64,000 nucleotides of DNA, taken from Otis tarda. Lineage: Eukaryota; Chordata; Aves; Otidiformes; Otididae. The stretch is from the NCBI GenBank assembly GCA_026413225.1, contig CM048552.1:207403553-207467552 (forward strand). The letters run 5' to 3'. A program made the translations under genes and the position numbers. How positions within the stretch are numbered: position 1 is the first letter of the stretch; every line of letters begins with the position of its first letter. Shown here in pieces: positions 8,953-53,445 of this stretch. The notes beneath the pieces are model-generated. The model was not told the DNA's origin, did no database searches, and worked only from the letters and a program-made list of their open reading frames with translations.

Positions 8953-17064
<8,112 letters not shown>

Positions 17065-23100: not shown

Positions 23101-26100
23101 AGAGTGTAATCCTCACTTTTACCTTGCCAGTTTGAGTAACAATTTGGAATTTTATTTTTTTTTAAAGTTATTATAAAAGCTACCCTGCCAGTTTCATGTA
23201 GATTTTTATTCTAATTCCTACATTTTTGCATCTCAGCTCTCCATATGTGAAAACTCAAACAACTAGTCAAGATATCCTTCTCTCATATTTTCGGATTATA
23301 AATAGGGAAACATTCAGAAGCATTAATATGAAATATCTAACAGCATGCTGTCAATACACTTTGAAAAATGTATGCCAAATGCTATGTGTAGATTCTTGTT
23401 CAAAACTAAGAAGTGGCTAGGTTATTGTTTAGGTTTCAGCCTTAGTGTTTGGACTTCTGCTGTCCTTGGAAGGGTCTGTGAAAAGTTACTGAGAAAAACA
23501 AGTCTTTTGTTAATGGATTGAACTCACTGCCCAGGATGTGAAACTCCACTGAAAAATATTTAGGACTTACTAAACCAGCAGTAATTTTCTGCCAGTTTTA
23601 GTCTCCATGTCCAGATTCAGTGAGCTTCAGCTCATGATGTTGACTTGAGAGACTTCAGTGAATTCCCTTCGCTTTCCAGAGTGCGTTCTATTTACAAGAC
23701 TTAGTCTGTCATGTTTACCTTTGGAACCAGTTCAATTATATGTTTTATATTGCCTACCATGAAAGGGATTTTCAGTGCTTAGCTAATAGAGTTTTATGAA
23801 TGCTGAAGGCATGGTAAGGTCTCTTAGGTGTCAAGACTACAATAACAGATTAAAACAGTGTCATGATCAAATCCCCAGAAAATATGGACTATAATACAAT
23901 GCTTCATATCTGTGAACTCTTCTCCCAGATGAACTAATTTTAACACAATATGAACGATCAAAAATAAGTGACTTTACTTCTACAGAGAGAGCACAGGGTA
24001 GAAATAGATCTATGGCAGTGGTCAAGCTTTCAAGAGCTTCTCCTCTCCTCATTTATGGCACAATGTTACTCATCTCTAAAGTAGCTAGATGTTTTTCCAA
24101 AATATCAGAATTCCCAAAAGATCCTTATACCTCCTTATCTGCAATTTGTTTTTGATTTTTTATGCTTTTTTTTTCCCATAAACATTTTCCCAGAGTGTCA
24201 AATAGGACTCTGATTTTTTTTTTATATCTGCTTGTCTTGCTGTTCACATGCATATCTAGTACCTTCCTCCCACTGGCTACGTTTCTGGTCAGAAGAAGAG
24301 AGCCAGTTTTATGTCAGTTTTACTGGGGCTACAGTTCCAAAAGCAAGTGCTATTGACCGCAGAGTGAAACAACCCTACAAGTGCTCCACATTGGACTGGC
24401 TCCTAACAGCCTTTCCACAAGCCAAAGATTGCCTCAGCACACTGCAGGGTCCAAAGACAAGGCTGCTGGCTCTGTTCCACCTGGAGCTGCTGAGCCAGCT
24501 AGGAGAGAGGACTTTCCATGTGTTTGGAGGTGTTGATGAAGTGTAAGAAGTGGGCTGTGGGGCAGGATTTTGTCCAAGTGACCATTGAGCATACACATAT
24601 TTAGGGGATAGGAAGGAGTTCTTCTTCTATAAGCATTTTTGAACTTTTGCCTTGGTACAATCCTGGCCATCAACCTATCCTGAACACTCACAGTCCAGTT
24701 TTCCCATACTTCTTTTACTTGATCTAGTTGTCCCTTTCTGCATAGTGCCATTGTCAGAAACCATTAGCTGCAAAGCCATTATATCAAAACCTCACCAATC
24801 ATTGCTTTATGAAGTCTATCCAGTTCTTAAATCTTAATTGAGGAATAAATCACTGCATGGTTCTCCTTGTAAAGTACACCCAGTGATGGGGAAGAAAATG
24901 TGACAGGTTTTCAACTTTTCTCTCAGGTATTTTACTAAAAGAATGTAAAAGGAATAATAAAGCATGGGAGGCATGAAATACCTTGAAACTAATGAGAAAT
25001 GCTGGGTTATGATTCACCTCTGCTGCAACATTCGAAACTGAGCAAAATTCAGAACTTGTATCATTGTCTGCATGTAAAGGCCAACTGTCAGATAAAGACT
25101 TTTTATCTTCAAATTTCCTGTACATGAATAAGTAGTAGTATCAGAAGCTGGTAACAAATTGTTTCCCCAAAACATTAATTAAATATTGGTAAAATGTGAA
25201 ATAGATTTAGATGTCTCCAACAAGGAGGGGTGCCATGCTCGACCTTGTGCTCACCAACAGGGAGGGACTGGTGGGGGATGTGAAACTGAAGGACAGCCTT
25301 GGCTGCAGCAACCATGACACGGTGGACTTCAAGATCCATGGGGCAGCGAGGAAACTACAAGGCAAGCTCTCAGCCCTAGACTTTAGGAGAGCGGACTTCG
25401 GCCTCTTCAGGGACCTGATGGGCAAAGTGCCATGGGAGGCAGCCCTGGAAGGAAGAGGGGCCCAGGAAAGTCGGTCCACATTCAAGGAGCACCTCCCCCA
25501 AGCTCAGCAGAGGTGCATCCCAATGAAGAACAAGTCGGGCAAAAAGGTCAGGAGACCTGCGTGGATGAGCAAGGACCTCCTGGACCAACTGAAAGTGAAG
25601 AGGAAAGCCTATAGAGGGTGGAAGTGGAGACAGGTAGCCTGGGAGGACTACAAAGAGGCTGTGCGAGTGGTCAGGGATCGGGTGAGGAAGGCTAAAGCCC
25701 TGACGGAATTGAATCTGGCCAGGGATATAAAAAGCAACAAGAAAAGCTTCTATAGGTATGTAGTGGACAGAAGAAAGTCCAAGGAGAATGTAGGCCCCCT
25801 CCGGAAGGAAACCGGTGCCCTGGTTACTTGGGACATGGAGAAGGCTGAGGTACTCAATGATTTTTTGCCTCAGCCTTCACCAACAAGAGTTCTTGTCCCA
25901 CCACCCAAGCTGTAGAAGGTGCAAGCAGGGACTGTGAGGATGAAGAACCGCCCATTGTACTCGAAGAGCAGGTTCGGGATCATCTGAGGAACTTAAAGGT
26001 GCACAAGTCCATGGGACCTGACGAGATCCACCCACGGGTCCTGAGGGAACTGGTGGATGAAGTTGCCAAGCCACTGGCTATCATATTTGAGAAGTCATGG

Positions 26101-27974
26101 CGGTCTGGTGAGGTCCCCGATGACTGGAAGAGAGGGAACATAACCCCTATTTTTAAAAAGGGGAACAAGGAGGACCCAGGCAACTACAGGTCGGTCAGCC
26201 TCACCTCTGTGCTTGGCAAGGTCATAGAGCAGATTCTCCTGGAAGCCATGCTAAGGCACATGGAGAGCAAGGAGGTGGTTGGTGACAGCCAACATGGCTT
26301 CACCAAGGGCAGATCGTGCCTGACCAACTTGGTGGCCTTCTATGATGGGGTGACAGCATCGGTGGACAAGGGACAAGAAACGGATATCATCTACCTGGAC
26401 TCGTGCTAAGCTTTTGACACTGTCCCGCATGACATCCTTCTCTCTAAACTAGAGAGGCATCGGTTTGATGGACGGACCACTGGGTGGATAAGGAGTTGGC
26501 TGGATGGCCGCACTCAGAGAGTGGTGGTCAACAGCTCAGTGTCCAAGTGAAGACCGGTCACGAGTGGCGTCCCTCAGGGGTCCGTGTTGGGCCCGGCCCT
26601 GTTCAACATCTTTGTCGGCGACATGGACAGTGGGATAGAGTGCACCCTCAGCAAGTTCGCCGATGACACCAAGCTGTGTGGTGCCGTCGACTCGCTGGAA
26701 GGGAGGGATGTGGTCCAGAGGCACCTTGACAGGCTGGAGAGGTGGGCCCGTGCCAACCTCATGAAGTTCAACCAGGCAAAGTGCAAGGTCGAGTAAGGTC
26801 ATTCTCCCCCTCTACTCTGCCCTGGTGAGACCCCACCTGGAGTACTGTGTCCAGTTCTGAAGCCCCCAACACAAGAAGGACATGGACCAGTTGGAGAAGG
26901 TCCAGAGGAGGGCCACAAAGATGATAAAAGGGCTGGAGCACCTCTCGTATGAGGACAGGCTGAGACAGTTGGGTCTGTTCAGCCTGGGGAAGAGAAGGCT
27001 CCGGGGAGACCTTATAGCGGTCTTCCAGTACCTCAAGGGGGCCTACAAGAAAGATGGGGAGAGGCTGTTCAGTAGGGCCTGTTGCAATAGGACAAGGAGT
27101 AATGGTTTTAAAATAGTGGGGGGTAGATTTAGATTGGAAATTAGGAAAAAATATTTTACAATGAGAGTTATAGAACACTGAAACAGGTTGCCCAGAAAGG
27201 TGGTGGAAGCCCCATCCCTGGAAACGTTCAAGGCCAGGCTGGATGAGGCTCTGAGCAACCTGATCTAGTCGGGGATGTCCCTGCTCCTTGCAGGTGGGTT
27301 GGACTGGTGACCTTTGAAGGTCCCTTCCAACCCTAACCATTCTATGATTCTATATTTATCAACTTCAATTTGATTTCACAAGTTAGATGAGGCTTTACTT
27401 TCTCAGAAGTCTCAAAATGATGAATGACAGATGAAGAAGTGAGCAGACTGTGCCATCCCAGATAACCTATCATCTGTAACTGTAATCCCAGAAAAAAATA
27501 GTTAAAAAAGGCAGCATACCTGAGAAAAAAAAAGCAGTGTCTTTTTTTTGACAGCTAGAATCTGTAAGATTCCTCTCCGTAAAGATTCCTTTAAGTGCAT
27601 ACAGTATGCAGACAACTCTGAAGCATTTTGCACCAAGGTAATGCAACTTGGTTCTGAAATTGGTTCATAAATTACTATATTTTAAATAATTTAAAAGGAA
27701 AATTCCACTGCAAAGAAAAATGATTTATCTTAATGAGCTTGGACATTTTTTTAGTAATCATATTATACACCAGACAAATGGTATTACTGGCATAAGCTGT
27801 CACTGAAAAGTATTTATTGTGCCATTACATTGACATAATCTTAGCCTAGCCTTGCTATAATGGCACCTTCGTGAAAGATAAAGAAGAGAAATGTCAGGAA
27901 AATGTGTAACTATGTCGTTAAAGAATCGCACTCCCACATACTTCAGTTTACCTTATTTTTTCCTTTTTCTGCAG
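17192..27974 (+). other. GRM5: GRM5 intron (10.8 kb)
   Basis: This intron has donor GTAAATG and acceptor TTTTTCTGCAG. It contains the large CR1 copy at 25213-27353, whose 3' end lies only about 620 bases before the next exon. The rest is AT-rich with some C-rich patches (18330-18560, 18850-18910, 21400-21720). The frame at 18855-19346 stays open for 163 codons but shows no domain or conserved motif. No RNA gene was seen. Confidence 0.85.
25213..27353 (+). mobile_element. CR1 LINE, long 5'-truncated copy with reverse-transcriptase remnants
   Basis: This + strand CR1 copy of about 2.1 kb is the largest repeat in the window. It begins in the last part of the ORF2 endonuclease (LDLVLTN, then [10 protein letters not shown]). 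It proceeds through the linker (frame 25211-25915) into reverse transcriptase: [26 protein letters not shown], and [18 protein letters not shown] in the frame from 25999, then the catalytic FADD at 26656-26667. It ends in the CR1 tail CATTCTATGATTCTAT. It is dead: a frame change lies near 25866, a stop replaces the residue before the AFDTV motif near 26407, and roughly 190-200 bases are missing at about 26797, where GCAAGGTCGAG joins GGTCATTCTCC. The missing part corresponds to about 5316-5505 of the copy at 5308. The moderately intact frames suggest intermediate age. Confidence 0.95.
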
Positions 27975-28914
27975 GTTGTGACCTCATCCCAGTCCAGTAC
28001 CTCAGATGGGGTGATCCTGAACCAATTGCAGCAGTTGTTTTTGCATGTCTGGGTCTGCTGGCCACCTTGTTTGTTACAGCTATATTCATAATGTACCGTG
28101 ATACTCCAGTGGTCAAATCATCCAGCCGAGAACTTTGCTACATCATTCTAGCCGGCATCTGCTTGGGTTACTTGTGCACTTTCTGTCTTATCGCAAAACC
28201 TCAACAGATTTACTGTTATCTTCAACGAATTGGCATCGGCCTCTCCCCAGCTATGAGTTATTCTGCTCTAGTAACTAAAACCAACCGCATTGCAAGAATC
28301 CTGGCTGGCAGCAAGAAGAAAATTTGTACAAAGAAACCTAGGTTCATGAGTGCCTGCGCCCAACTGGTTATTGCATTTATCTTGATATGTATACAATTAG
28401 GCATAATTGTTGCCCTCTTTATAATGGAGCCACCAGATATAATGCATGATTACCCAAGCATCCGAGAGGTCTACCTGATTTGTAACACCACCAACTTGGG
28501 TGTTGTAACTCCCCTTGGATATAATGGATTATTAATTTTGAGTTGCACCTTTTACGCATTTAAGACAAGAAATGTCCCAGCTAATTTCAATGAAGCGAAG
28601 TATATTGCCTTTACAATGTATACCACCTGCATCATTTGGCTGGCTTTTGTGCCAATATATTTTGGAAGCAACTACAAGATAATCACCATGTGTTTCTCAG
28701 TGAGTCTGAGTGCTACGGTGGCCCTTGGCTGTATGTTTGTGCCCAAGGTCTATATCATCCTTGCTAAGCCTGAAAGGAACGTACGCAGTGCATTCACCAC
28801 ATCGACTGTGGTCCGCATGCACGTAGGGGATGGAAAGTCATCTTCAGCTGCAAGCCGCTCAAGCAGCCTAGTGAACCTGTGGAAAAGAAGGGGATCATCT
28901 GGTGAAACCCTTAG
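27975..28914 (+). CDS. GRM5: GRM5 exon: seven-transmembrane domain and proximal C-tail
   Basis: This 940-base exon carries the whole heptahelical bundle. Helix 1 includes IAAVVFACLGLLATLFVTAI, helix 2 ELCYIILAGICLGYLCTF, helix 3 CYLQRIGIGLSPAMSYSALV, helix 4 AQLVIAFILICIQLGIIVAL, helix 5 LGYNGLLILSCTFYAF, helix 6 YIAFTMYTTCIIWLAFVPIY and helix 7 CFSVSLSATVALGCMFVPK. Class C hallmarks are present: KTNRIARI after helix 3, NVPANFNEAKYI before helix 6, the helix 6 Trp, and VPKVYII ending helix 7. The cysteines before helix 3 and in VYLICNTT form the conserved loop disulfide. The tail holds RSAFTTS (the known PKC-regulated site controlling calcium oscillations) and ASRSSSLVNLW (the known calmodulin/PKC region). 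The acceptor is TTCTGCAG|GTTGTG. The donor follows GETL plus AG, so the next exon must supply one base; all three candidate downstream exons do. Confidence 0.99.
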
Positions 28915-39274: not shown

Positions 39275-39420
39275 CTGAACCTCCTCCTCTCCGAACCTCT
39301 CCGAACCTCTCCTCTCCTCTCCAAACCTTTCCTCTCCGAACCTCTCCTCTCCTCTCCTCTCCAAACCTTTCCTCTCCGAACCTCTCCTCTCCGAACCTCT
39401 CCTCTCCTAACTTCTTCTCC
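39275..39420. repeat. Pyrimidine-rich minisatellite, CTCTC/GAACCTCTC units
   Basis: About 145 bases are built from CCTCTCCTCT and CCGAACCTCT words. A higher-order unit beginning CCAAACCTTTCCTCT occurs at 39321 and again at 39361, giving a 40-base period. The + strand is almost purely C and T apart from AA/GAA doublets, so the array shows strong purine/pyrimidine strand asymmetry. A + strand reading frame crosses it with repeated LSSPN, but this follows from unit length and is not evidence of a gene. Length variation between individuals is likely. Confidence 0.9.
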
Positions 39421-43526: not shown

Positions 43527-43622
43527 GTACAAAGGCAGGAGACTGGCCCCGCACAAGTCGGAAATAGAGTGTTTCACCCCAAAAGGGAGTATGGGGAATG
43601 GTGGGAGAGCTACAATGACCAG
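43527..43622 (+). CDS. GRM5: GRM5 cassette exon specific to mGluR5b (32 codons)
   Basis: This exactly 96-base alternative exon distinguishes the longer mGluR5b from mGluR5a. With the AG left by the seven-helix exon it reads RYKGRRLAPHKSEIECFTPK, then GSMGNGGRATMT, leaving AG for the next exon. It aligns residue for residue with the mammalian 5b insert as I remember it (RYKDRRLAQHKSEIECFTPK...), with Gly for Asp and Pro for Gln as differences. The acceptor is GATTTATTAG|G and the donor is CCAG|GTAAGC. It has the same phase (2 in, 2 out) on both sides, so inclusion or skipping keeps the frame. In mammals the 5b form rises postnatally. The insert is basic and cytoplasmic and lies before the Homer and PDZ motifs. 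The exon is too short to be found as an open frame by itself. Confidence 0.96.
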
Positions 43623-44717: not shown

Positions 44718-45010
44718 GTCATAGAATCATACAATCACAGAAAGAATCATAGAATAGTTTGAGTTGGAAGAGACCTTAAAGATCATCCAGTTCCAACCCC
44801 CCTGCCCTGGGCAGGGACACCTTCCACCAGACGAGGTCACTCAAAATCCCATCCAACCTGGCCTTGAGCACTACCAGGGATGGGGCATCCACAGCTTCTC
44901 TGGGCAACCTGTGCCAGTGCCTCACCACCCTCATAGTGAAGAATTTCTTCCTTCTGTCTAATCTAAATCTACCCTCTTTCAGTTTAAAGCCATTACTTCT
45001 TGTTCTTTAG
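44718..45010 (-). mobile_element. CR1 LINE 3'-end fragment
   Basis: This reverse-oriented CR1 end of about 290 bases starts with repeated inverted tail units (TCATAGAATCATACAATCAC, then AATCATAGAATAG). It continues through GTTGGAAGAGACCTTAAAGA, CCCCCCTGCCCTGGGCAGGG and GGGCATCCACAGCTTCTCTG to GCCATTACTTCTTGTTC, the complement of the end of ORF2. Its CCTGCCCTGGGCAGGGACAC wording differs from the CCTGCAAGGAGCAGGGACAT of the copy at 41519, so it belongs to another CR1 subfamily. Confidence 0.93.
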
Positions 45011-45484
45011 TTTTCCCAAGTGTTACATCACAGGTGAATTTTACCATTGTAGGAGGGTATTCAGTGAAACACTTGCACAGTGTTATGTCCCCCTTGGGTA
45101 CAATAATATTCATCCATGTATATAAGGGTATCAGCTACAACACCACAGAGCACACACCTGGGGGCCTCCTGCTGTCCAAGTAACATCAGGAACACTCATG
45201 TTGTACAAAATGTATACACGTCTGTTATTTTTTCGTCAGCTGGGATTCTGTTTCTTGTCTGCGTGTTGTCTGAATTTTTTTTTCCCTACATTGCATTGCC
45301 TTTGGTGATGTTTATCCTTCATTTTAAAGCTATCTGGAGTCACTATATAAGAGAATTTTCAAGAGCAGAAAAGTACATGTAAATGTCAAACAACTGTATT
45401 TTGTTGTACAATATTCAGCTCTGTTTTGCCTGGCCATATATACACATTAAAAAAACTTCTTTTTTATATTTTATATCTTCACAG

Positions 45485-45668
45485 TGAAGAATCTGTTTGC
45501 ATTCCAGACTGTAATCGATCTGAGTCAAGTAGAGAGGAGAAAAAGGTTCCTGTTAAAGAGGATGCCCTAACAGTCAAAAAGTCTGGAAACTGTGTCAGTC
45601 TAATAGTTCCACAGCAAGACTGTCAGCTGCAAGACCTACTCAAACAGTTAAGAACACTTGCTGCTTAA
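45485..45668 (+). CDS. GRM5: Candidate alternative last exon of GRM5 (new 61-residue tail)
   Basis: After a pyrimidine-rich stretch and CTTCACAG, an open frame of 61 codons runs to TAA at 45666-45668. The acceptor leaves a T that completes the AG overhang of the seven-helix exon (28914) or of the 5b cassette (43622), giving Ser and then EESVCIPDCNRSESSREEKK, VPVKEDALTVKKSGN and CVSLIVPQQDCQLQDLLKQL, ending RTLAA. The tail is hydrophilic first, then has a hydrophobic CVSLIV segment and a likely amphipathic helix. It lacks the Homer (PPSPF) and PDZ (SSSSL) motifs. It is not the tail of mGluR5a or 5b, and I do not recognise it from other described isoforms. A weak donor (CTCA|GTAAGT, exon end 45844) follows, so it could instead be a poison exon. 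ATTAAA near 46397 is a possible poly(A) signal. A 61-codon open frame alone is not rare by chance; the matching phase, acceptor and protein-like composition together raise it. Confidence 0.42.
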
Positions 45669-48600
45669 CAGAGAGTGCAATTGCATTTGATGGCTGTGTT
45701 TTGTTGTCTCCAGCCACAGTGTCCTGGCCAGTGGTCCTTGTCAAATTTCATGAGCAAAGTAGAGTTGCACTGAACAGCCTAGGAACCTTCCAGAGAGAAC
45801 GTAGATGTTGCAGAAAGGAAAGTAGGTGCCGTTCTCCTGTCTCAGTAAGTACCAGACCAGTGCTAGAAGTCACTGAGATGAAGTGCAGATGGAAAAGACA
45901 GATGCAGGGGTCTGACTATTTATGAATAATGAACAAATCTCATCATCTCACAGGACGAAGAGGTCTCGTGATACTGACCAAATCCCACTTACATCCTTTC
46001 AACCTAAAAAACGCTGTGCAATTTCATACTGGACAGTATTGTTCAGCTCATGTTCTCAAATCCCTTGTGCAATATTATATTTGTTTTCCAGCCCTAGTGT
46101 GGATATTTTTCACATTTTTGCCTAACTATCTCAGTATATTAGTCTTACACATGATTTGGGAATTTTCAAGATGAAAAGTTACATAAAAACAGCAGTAATG
46201 GGTACACTATGTGATGATTTGTAAGGCTATTTCTGATTAAGAGAAGTTACTACATCCTGCATCACCTGTGAGCATCATTCACATGTATCTGATAAAAATC
46301 AATTATAGAATGGTATGTTTTATGAGGCTTTCACAAAGCAGTCATTGTAACTTCTTTTTTTTTAATTTCTTTTATCATATTTGTGTTTCTGATTTGATTA
46401 AATGCAATGAATAAGAAACTACTCAATAATTCACAAGAGTAATTTTTCTGCTGGTAAGTCCTACGTGCACAAATACCTCTGTAACTATGTATCAGGCATG
46501 CCGAACACCTGAAATTCCTCAAATTGTGTATTCTTCACAGAGGACAGAATTCAAATGAACCCTTGACTCTGGAGATACAACAGGATATTTTTTTTCTCTT
46601 TTTTTTGTTTTCTTCTTGTGCACTGCTTGTGCTCATGATTTCAGGGTCGGGTAAGCTGATGATTAATATTTTCCCAGTTTCAATTTCATACCTTTAGCAA
46701 ATTATCAATGAAAAAAAACCCCAACATGCTGACTAAGCAATGCTGAAAGCATCCTAAAGCTTTGTGCACCAGCAAGAAGAACTCACAGTTCAGGACATGG
46801 GGTTGTCCTCTCTCTATCCAGTCAATAGGATGCTCCAGTGTAGCAGAGATCTGCTCAGAGATGCTTGAAGTTACATTTTTTGGATGAGAACTGAAACCTA
46901 GCATAGCTGCCTTAATTAAGAATTGCAATGAGGTCACAGTAATAAAGGAAAGAAGTTACACCTGGTATCAAAATCATTTTTGCATTCTGGGTCACGATAA
47001 TAGGCGTCCTAGAAATGTTTCATTCAGGTACCAGACACTTCATTTTCCATTCTAACCAGGCATGCTGCTGGAATAGCTGCCAGCATTAGTGTTGCTGGTG
47101 GCTGCACTGGGAGCTCACTGGCAAAGTTTTTGTCCATCAACTCTCCTTCACTTTGTAGTTTCTTTCATCCTTACACATTAAAGTAATTCACATACATAAA
47201 CGTCAGCTGTGATGTTCATGAGGAAAGGAGGTATCAACAGAATACAGTTTGTGAAGTAATATAAACAAATGTCCTTGCTGTTGTTAACAGAAAACAACTC
47301 TCTTTGCAAAATAATTGCAAAATATGTTGTTTACTTCTAGAACTCAGGACAGGACAAAATGAATTTTTGTCCTGTATCATTCTTCTTTTGTATTGTGTTG
47401 TTACTTATCTCCACAGAACAAGCAACATGGAAATAATTTAAGCTGAATTACTTGAGTGATATATCACTAGCAGGCTATTTATGTATGACAGAATTGGCTT
47501 TCATCTAGGGAAACAATTATATAGACATGTAGAGGTTTCCTTAAATGCTATTCAAAATGGCAACAACATAAACCATTACAGTGGTAGAACTGACCTAATT
47601 TAGACACCTTAGAGTTCTGCATCCAGTTTTAGCCACTCATCCAGGTTGCCCTACAGTCCCAGGAGAAACTATGACTTTTTGTTGCAAGGCATTTGCAGTC
47701 TCCCAAGGATGAAGAACTTGGGTCAGTACAGGCAAGGTGTATATTGATCTGAGGTCGACTCAAGCAACAAGAGTAGAGAAACAAAATACACATGTGCCCA
47801 TGCTTGCATGCATCACAGGCACACATGCATGTGACCCCTTAAGAAGAGTCAATTTATAATTAAACCTACAGATAGAGCACAAAATCTTCTCAGGAAGAGT
47901 AACGATATCATTGAGTCTTTAACAAGGTTTCAGCAGAGGACTGTAAAAGGACAATAACTTCTTACTATTTATTTTGAATAAAAAGTTTTCTCTTTGGCAG
48001 AAAGTTATATGGACTAAGATAAGTACAGAAGTTTATCCTGTTTACCACTGCCAGCTGCTTTGTGAATAAGACAGAAGAGATTATCCCTTAAAGACAGGAG
48101 AAAATTGTCCTTAACAAACAGGCTTGGTCTAGACAGTGTTGGAGCAATAACTTAACTAGGTCAGTTTCTTAAAAATGCAACACTCTATTTCAGCCATTGA
48201 AACACCTAAGCATAACTTTGCTGCCAAGTTTAGCTCAATAAAATTTAGACTAGTGTTCTGAAATATGAATTTGCATGCAATGACTTACAAATTAAAGATT
48301 TTGAAATTATTCCTTATTATATTTATGTGAGGACAGGTTGCAAACAGGTCATACAGGTCTCCATCAAGTTACTGTCCAGTATCTGTTTTCAGTTGTATTA
48401 TTTCAAATCTGGATTCAGGTATTGACATTGGTATGTGACAGAGAACAAAAATTCCCTTAAATTTTTGTATTAATCTCCATCAATTCCCTTGTATTTCAGT
48501 TTCCACTGGTGAATAATACTGTGAAGCTATGTCTTCTAAGCTTTCTTAGAAAATAATAAATTCCATAATTTTATTTTCCTATTTCATGTCAAGATATTAA

Positions 48601-52622: not shown

Positions 52623-53445
52623 CTCTAATGGGAAATCAGTTTCCTGGGCTCAGAATGAGAAAAGCAGCAGAGGAGCACACCTTTGGCAGCGGTTGTCCAT
52701 CCACATCAACAAAAAAGAGAACCCCAATCAAACTGCAGTGATCAAGCCTTTTTCTAAAAGCACAGATAGTAGCCGACATAGTAGCAGTGCTACATTTCCT
52801 GAGGCCAGTGCCAAAACACTCTACGACGTTTCAGAAGCCGAAGAGCAGTACCCAGCTCAGTACCGACCGCAGACTCCCTCGCCTATCAGCACCTTGAGCC
52901 ACAGAACTGCCTCTGTTAGCCGAACAGAAGATGATGCCCCTACCTTCCAGTCCGAGCCTCCTCAGCGAAGTAGCTCCTCTCAAGGCTCCCTCATGGAGCA
53001 GATCAGTAGCGTGGTTACTCGCTTCACAGCTAATATCAGCGAGCTGAACAATATGATGCTTTCAACAGCAACTCCAGGGACAATGGTGGCGACTCCTCTC
53101 TGCTCTTCATACCTGATCCCACGGGAAATCCAGCTTCCTACGACAATGACCACGTTTGCAGAGATCCAACCACTTCCTTCTATTGAAGTCAATGGCGCTT
53201 CACAGTCAGCTAGGAAACCTTCAAATGGCAGTGTCAAAGAAGGCACTTCAGAGACCCCATCAACAAAGCAAGACCTTGAGGAGTTGGTAGCTTTAACTCC
53301 TCCTTCTCCTTTTAGAGACTCCACTGATTCTGGAAGTGCATCTCCCAGCTCTCCGGTTTCCGAATCAGCTCTCTGTATCCCATCCTCCCCAAAATATGAT
53401 ACACTCCTCATCAGAGATTATACTCAAAGTTCTTCTTCGCTGTGA
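52623..53445 (+). CDS. GRM5: GRM5 last coding exon: C-terminal tail with Homer and PDZ motifs
   Basis: The acceptor TTTACAG|C completes a Ser codon. The frame then reads SNGKSVSWAQNEKSSRGAHL, WQRLSIHINKKENPNQTAVI and onward to IRDYTQSSSSL and TGA at 53443-53445. Key parts are SLMEQISSVVTRFTANISEL (conserved in the family), the Homer EVH1-binding PPSPF at 53299-53313, and the class I PDZ-binding end SSSSL that recruits scaffolds. These anchor the receptor in the postsynaptic density and link it to Shank and IP3 receptors. The tail is shorter than the mammalian one: after KPFSKSTDSSRHSSSATF it goes almost directly to KTLYDVSEAEE, without the long Gly/Ala-rich tract that I recall in human mGluR5. 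It is serine-rich throughout and probably disordered. Confidence 0.98.

Follow-up and report, generated by a model that had tools for sequence, protein, structure and literature searches.

A stretch of 64,000 nucleotides from the genome of Otis tarda, at C1:207403553-207467552 (the window, taken at its full length), contains coding exons of GRM5 from at least position 13636 onward, and in the intron before the normal last exon it also contains an open frame that begins behind a splice acceptor and ends in TAA. A first-pass annotation had read this frame as a possible undescribed alternative last exon, which would give mGluR5 a tail without Homer and PDZ motifs. The locus thus raises the question of whether the frame is an exon of GRM5 and, if so, whether it ends the receptor or is inserted into it.

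The exons on either side of the frame are all encoded on the plus strand. The seven-helix (7TM) exon (27975-28914) is an open frame of mGluR5 sequence with the donor TAG/GTAAAG, and its last two bases, AG, belong to a codon completed in the next exon. The 5b cassette exon (43527-43622; 96 nt, 32 codons), whose acceptor, donor, and phase were read directly, likewise leaves AG. The normal last exon (52623-53445) encodes the Homer-binding region and the SSSSL end; the Homer-binding family PF10606 is detected at the end of two bird homologs that carry the peptide of the frame, P0023 and P0005.

The sequence features on which the annotation was built are all present. A T-rich tract precedes CACAG at 45480-45484 on the plus strand, the first base of the frame at 45485 completes AG+T to a serine codon, and 60 more codons follow before TAA at 45666-45668, making up the 61-codon frame. 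The phase fits both possible upstream exons, which end at 28914 and 43622, and both joins are free of stops and read to ...CQLQDLLKQLRTLAA. Scored with an approximate vertebrate matrix, the acceptor ranks within the top 2.9% of the window's AG sites.

Taken by sequence alone, this combination of acceptor, frame, phase, and stop is within chance. In a comparison made with a simple splice matrix of approximate vertebrate frequencies, the introns separating the 7TM exon from the last exon contain 40 AG sites, the cassette acceptor being one of them, that score at least as high as that acceptor, and at five of the 40, again including the cassette site, at least 61 codons are open in the same phase. 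What raises the frame above the chance level is homology and not the sequence cues alone: on the evidence of homologous bird proteins, it very probably belongs to a real GRM5 exon with the acceptor, phase, and reading frame that had been claimed.

We searched a database of cluster representatives at 90% identity, in which a shorter isoform could be masked by a longer member, in three protein searches spanning lengths of about 33-105, 205-653, and 424-1349 residues. The 60-residue peptide returned two matches from two candidates, P0002 (95% identical) and P0003 (90%), both short contigs in which an unspliced frame comes out of the intron, crosses the acceptor, and reaches the same end as in the window. 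A query joining the 7TM exon to the peptide gave 17 matches from 79 candidates, and two of these contain the peptide: P0004, also an unspliced frame, and P0005, an NCBI model from turkey. The YLH residues encoded before the serine codon are identical in P0002-P0005. By a motif check, the insert is absent from the other 15 matches (P0006-P0020), one of which, P0006, is a read-assembled contig (source lgn) spliced across the tail junction without the cassette (GETLSSNGKSV). Another, the Xenopus laevis model P0010, separates GETLS from SNGKSV at this tail position by a short insert of another sequence, ISFTPGPTHSYCQQPIGI, which may reflect either a cassette of the frog gene or an error in the model.

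The turkey model shows where the exon ends. It exits the frame at QDLLK and continues with H and then SNGKSV of the normal last exon, which therefore places a donor at 45646/45647. P0004 shares with turkey all five positions at which it departs from the window insert and is for this reason probably galliform; it has lost the TAA, and its frame extends for 132 residues.

The main search used a 771-residue query of joined window exons, with the insert as the scored region and E<=1, and returned 158 matches from 162 candidates, of which 120 are listed, every one under a name recognized as a bird. In all 120 listed proteins, the insert adjoins the end of the 5b cassette (RATMTS) and gives way to HSNGKSV, and the C-terminus is SSSSL. 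The inner part of the insert is 53 residues long in 119 of them, and P0120 lacks three residues. The 5b cassette itself has two lengths among these 120 proteins, 32 residues in 76 and 33 in 44; PPHK occurs in all 44 of the longer cassettes and in none of the 76 shorter ones.

Based on the turkey model and the 120 listed bird proteins, which share the same junctions, we consider it highly likely that positions 45485-45646 (plus strand; 162 nt, 54 codons) are an internal, in-frame cassette exon of bird GRM5. Its first base completes AG+T and its last two bases, CA, form CAC with the last exon, so that this multiple of three joins in frame as AG/T and CA/C, in the phase of both neighbors. The protein junction CA/C implies the donor GTTAAG at 45647-45652, and 45647-45668 would then be the start of the next intron, with the TAA inside it. 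The frame as first annotated is thus open to its stop, but the listed homologs, which appear to be gene models, leave it 22 nucleotides earlier, and what had been taken for an alternative last exon is internal in every one of them. The tail without Homer and PDZ motifs finds no counterpart either, as the SSSSL end is retained throughout the 120 and PF10606 is present in the insert-bearing P0023. Neither QLRT nor the proposed QLRTLAA end occurs in any listed protein. The stop fares similarly as a conserved product end, being kept in P0002 and P0003, lost in P0004, and unused in all 120.

The very weak donor is the main oddity of the cassette. By an approximate donor matrix, ACA/GTTAAG scores -6.88, a value that 67.5% of the window's GT sites equal or exceed. 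Such a donor fits an exon that is included only sometimes and gives read-through to the TAA a slight chance. Transcripts entering at 45485 could accordingly end beyond 45666-45668 and encode a short tail, QLRTLAA, without the Homer-binding and PDZ ends. Besides the donor, this alternative would account for the frame and stop kept in P0002 and P0003 and for the residues LRT and AA, which lie past the donor and are identical in the four unspliced frames (the window and P0002-P0004), with no clear drop in conservation at the donor. For the same reason, conservation alone does not place the end of the exon; the spliced models do.

Several observations nevertheless make a terminal exon very improbable. 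None of the 120 listed proteins has the short tail and no spliced form of it occurs among the 17 matches of the 7TM-plus-peptide search, an absence that is not proof, as 90% clustering may hide short members and 106-204 residues fall outside the searched lengths. P0004, whose insert has the five differences of turkey, reads through the lost stop for its 132 residues. Beyond the TAA, the nearest AATAAA is about 1.3 kb away at 46941, with ATTAAA at 46397. A combined version, in which the donor acts as a switch, so that splicing yields the 54-residue insert with Homer anchoring and failure to splice yields, in birds that keep the TAA, the short tail without Homer and PDZ ends, is just as improbable; if true, a single exon would toggle scaffold anchoring of mGluR5.

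The internal cassette exon must also be weighed against the possibility that it is an artifact of annotation, in which case a conserved element that codes for nothing, and whose frame is open by accident, would have been threaded into gene models and copied between genomes. The supporting proteins look like gene models, judged by their names, and models can copy one another; many of the database entries are partial models. The read-assembled matches that contain the insert (P0002-P0004) are all unspliced, no lgn row occurs among the 120 listed matches, and among the matches listed there is thus no spliced read-assembled contig with the insert. The weak donor would suit an artifact as well, and frames this long are not unusual by chance here, as the five open AG sites, the cassette site included, attest.

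Against this stands the way in which the insert varies. The 119 same-length rows comprise 37 distinct versions, with 64 rows equal to the consensus; none of the 119 contains a stop, and a change of length is seen in P0120 only. The two unannotated contigs, P0002 and P0003, are open as well. Moreover, a predictor working without transcripts would hardly pick so weak a donor repeatedly. We therefore regard an artifact as improbable.

The level of conservation can be compared with that of neighboring exons. Mean pairwise identity among the listed birds is 98.0% for the insert (119 rows), a figure that leans high because the list is ranked by insert similarity and holds 120 of the 158 matches, versus 97.1% for the last exon (120 rows); the 5b cassette reaches 99.0% over its 76 rows of length 32, and the 7TM exon 99.6% over 120 rows. 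By mean identity, the insert thus appears about as invariant among the listed birds as the normal last exon. Counted by columns, however, the insert is not the most invariant part: variable columns number 30 of 53 in the insert versus 66 of 274 in the last exon, although the changes in the insert are mostly confined to one to three rows.

The frames that run through the acceptor also permit a comparison of the cassette with the intron before it. Codons differing from the window before the acceptor number 5 of 33 in P0002, 10 of 37 in P0003, 6 of 33 in P0004, and 18 of 60 in P0005, the last count being inflated by a first part that aligns poorly; in the cassette, the corresponding numbers are 2, 5, 5, and 5, each out of 53. 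The intron part has 2, 3, 1, and 5 alignment gaps in P0002-P0005, while the cassette shows no change of length. The contrast is modest for P0004. A very large exon/intron contrast in P0002 and P0003 was reduced in a frame-aware comparison, much of it being due to small frame-shifting indels. Judged from these alignments, the conservation seems to be constraint on the peptide level.

The cassette sequence does not look like a repeat, because the queried 261-base stretch has a single match in its own 1.198-Gb genome and the peptide has no convincing second genomic match. The whole-genome peptide search returned the self match and one other at E 8.69, which contains an internal stop; no convincing second copy was found, including a paralogous exon of GRM1. 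The 60-residue peptide matched no Pfam family and no solved structure, no relative came up when viral_contigs and genome_contigs were scanned, and no Rfam family reaches the gathering score within the window.

Repeats do occur elsewhere in the locus. Frames resembling what we take to be a CR1-type retrotransposon lie just upstream of the 7TM exon (25211-27181); one part, 25861-26406, hits reverse transcriptase PF00078 with a score of 29.1 bits, just short of the curated cut-off of 29.6, and Pfam gives nothing for the frames at 25211 and 26861. Another short fragment, presumably CR1-like, lies on the minus strand at 44776-45006, some 480 bases before the cassette exon, and has no Pfam match. 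A pyrimidine-rich tandem array at 39277-39419 includes 2.2 copies of a 40-base unit with 100% matches.

As an internal cassette, the exon would be included after 5b or, by phase, directly after the 7TM exon, and be followed by the normal last exon. With the exon included, the cytoplasmic tail would grow by 54 residues, S-EESVCIPDCNRSESSREEKKVPVKEDALTVKKSGNCVSLIVPQQDCQLQDLLK-H, and the receptor would retain its seven helices, the Homer-binding region, and the SSSSL end. A Pfam scan of the insert-bearing P0023 finds PF01094, PF07562, PF00003, and PF10606. Because P0023 has the ligand-binding, cysteine-rich, 7TM, and Homer-binding domains, the product should still couple to Gq and bind Homer, as is expected of a receptor with these domains. 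A passage of PMC9265771 states that the long forms bind Homer through their C-terminal domain. The insert may act as a longer spacer between the membrane-proximal tail and the Homer site, and it would bring acidic and basic clusters as well as phosphorylatable Ser/Thr residues. A structure prediction made with P0133 and 16 other sequences gave a mean pLDDT of 31.3 and was not used.

From the agreement of annotated models, we infer that the cassette is spliced in living cells. It may be included optionally and under regulation; alternative inclusion is suggested by the isoform numbers (X1, X2, X3, 1-T1, 3-T3) found in several of the database names. The insert is also already known as public annotation, for instance in entries called 'metabotropic glutamate receptor 5 isoform X1', and so is not undescribed in the sense first proposed, although we found no study of it in the open-licence literature. 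The bird models of this type from Prinia subflava (P0023), Strigops habroptila (P0041), and Rissa tridactyla (P0053) have the same insert position, junctions, and last exon as the window and show no structural difference from it in the features compared. The insert of P0041 is identical to that of the window, the sole identical one among the 120 listed.

Among described tail variants, the closest in kind is mGluR5b, given as a 32-residue insertion in the consulted parts of PMC9265771 and PMC8778124. Like the 5b cassette, the bird exon is in frame, has the same phase, lies between the 7TM and last exons, and leaves the Homer and PDZ ends intact; it differs in its sequence, its 54 residues, its position downstream of 5b, and its weaker donor. 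Human mGluR5d is also a C-terminal variant of mGluR5, but its C-terminus is shorter by 267 residues according to a passage of PMC3907147, whereas the bird insert lengthens the receptor; we therefore rejected an identification of the insert with mGluR5d. Short tails of the mGluR1b type, the comparison drawn in the first-pass annotation, likewise reflect variation of the tail by splicing, with only 68 C-terminal residues in mGluR1b as given in part of PMC8778124. An assignment to this kind was also rejected, as the bird insert retains the normal last exon and SSSSL and does not shorten the tail.

The bird gene models thus correct a tempting misreading of this intron, from a Homer-free bird mGluR5 to an insert that keeps the scaffold ends. 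If the cassette is used as these models predict, the insert is a concrete candidate for a difference between bird mGluR5 and the mammalian receptor used in pharmacology.
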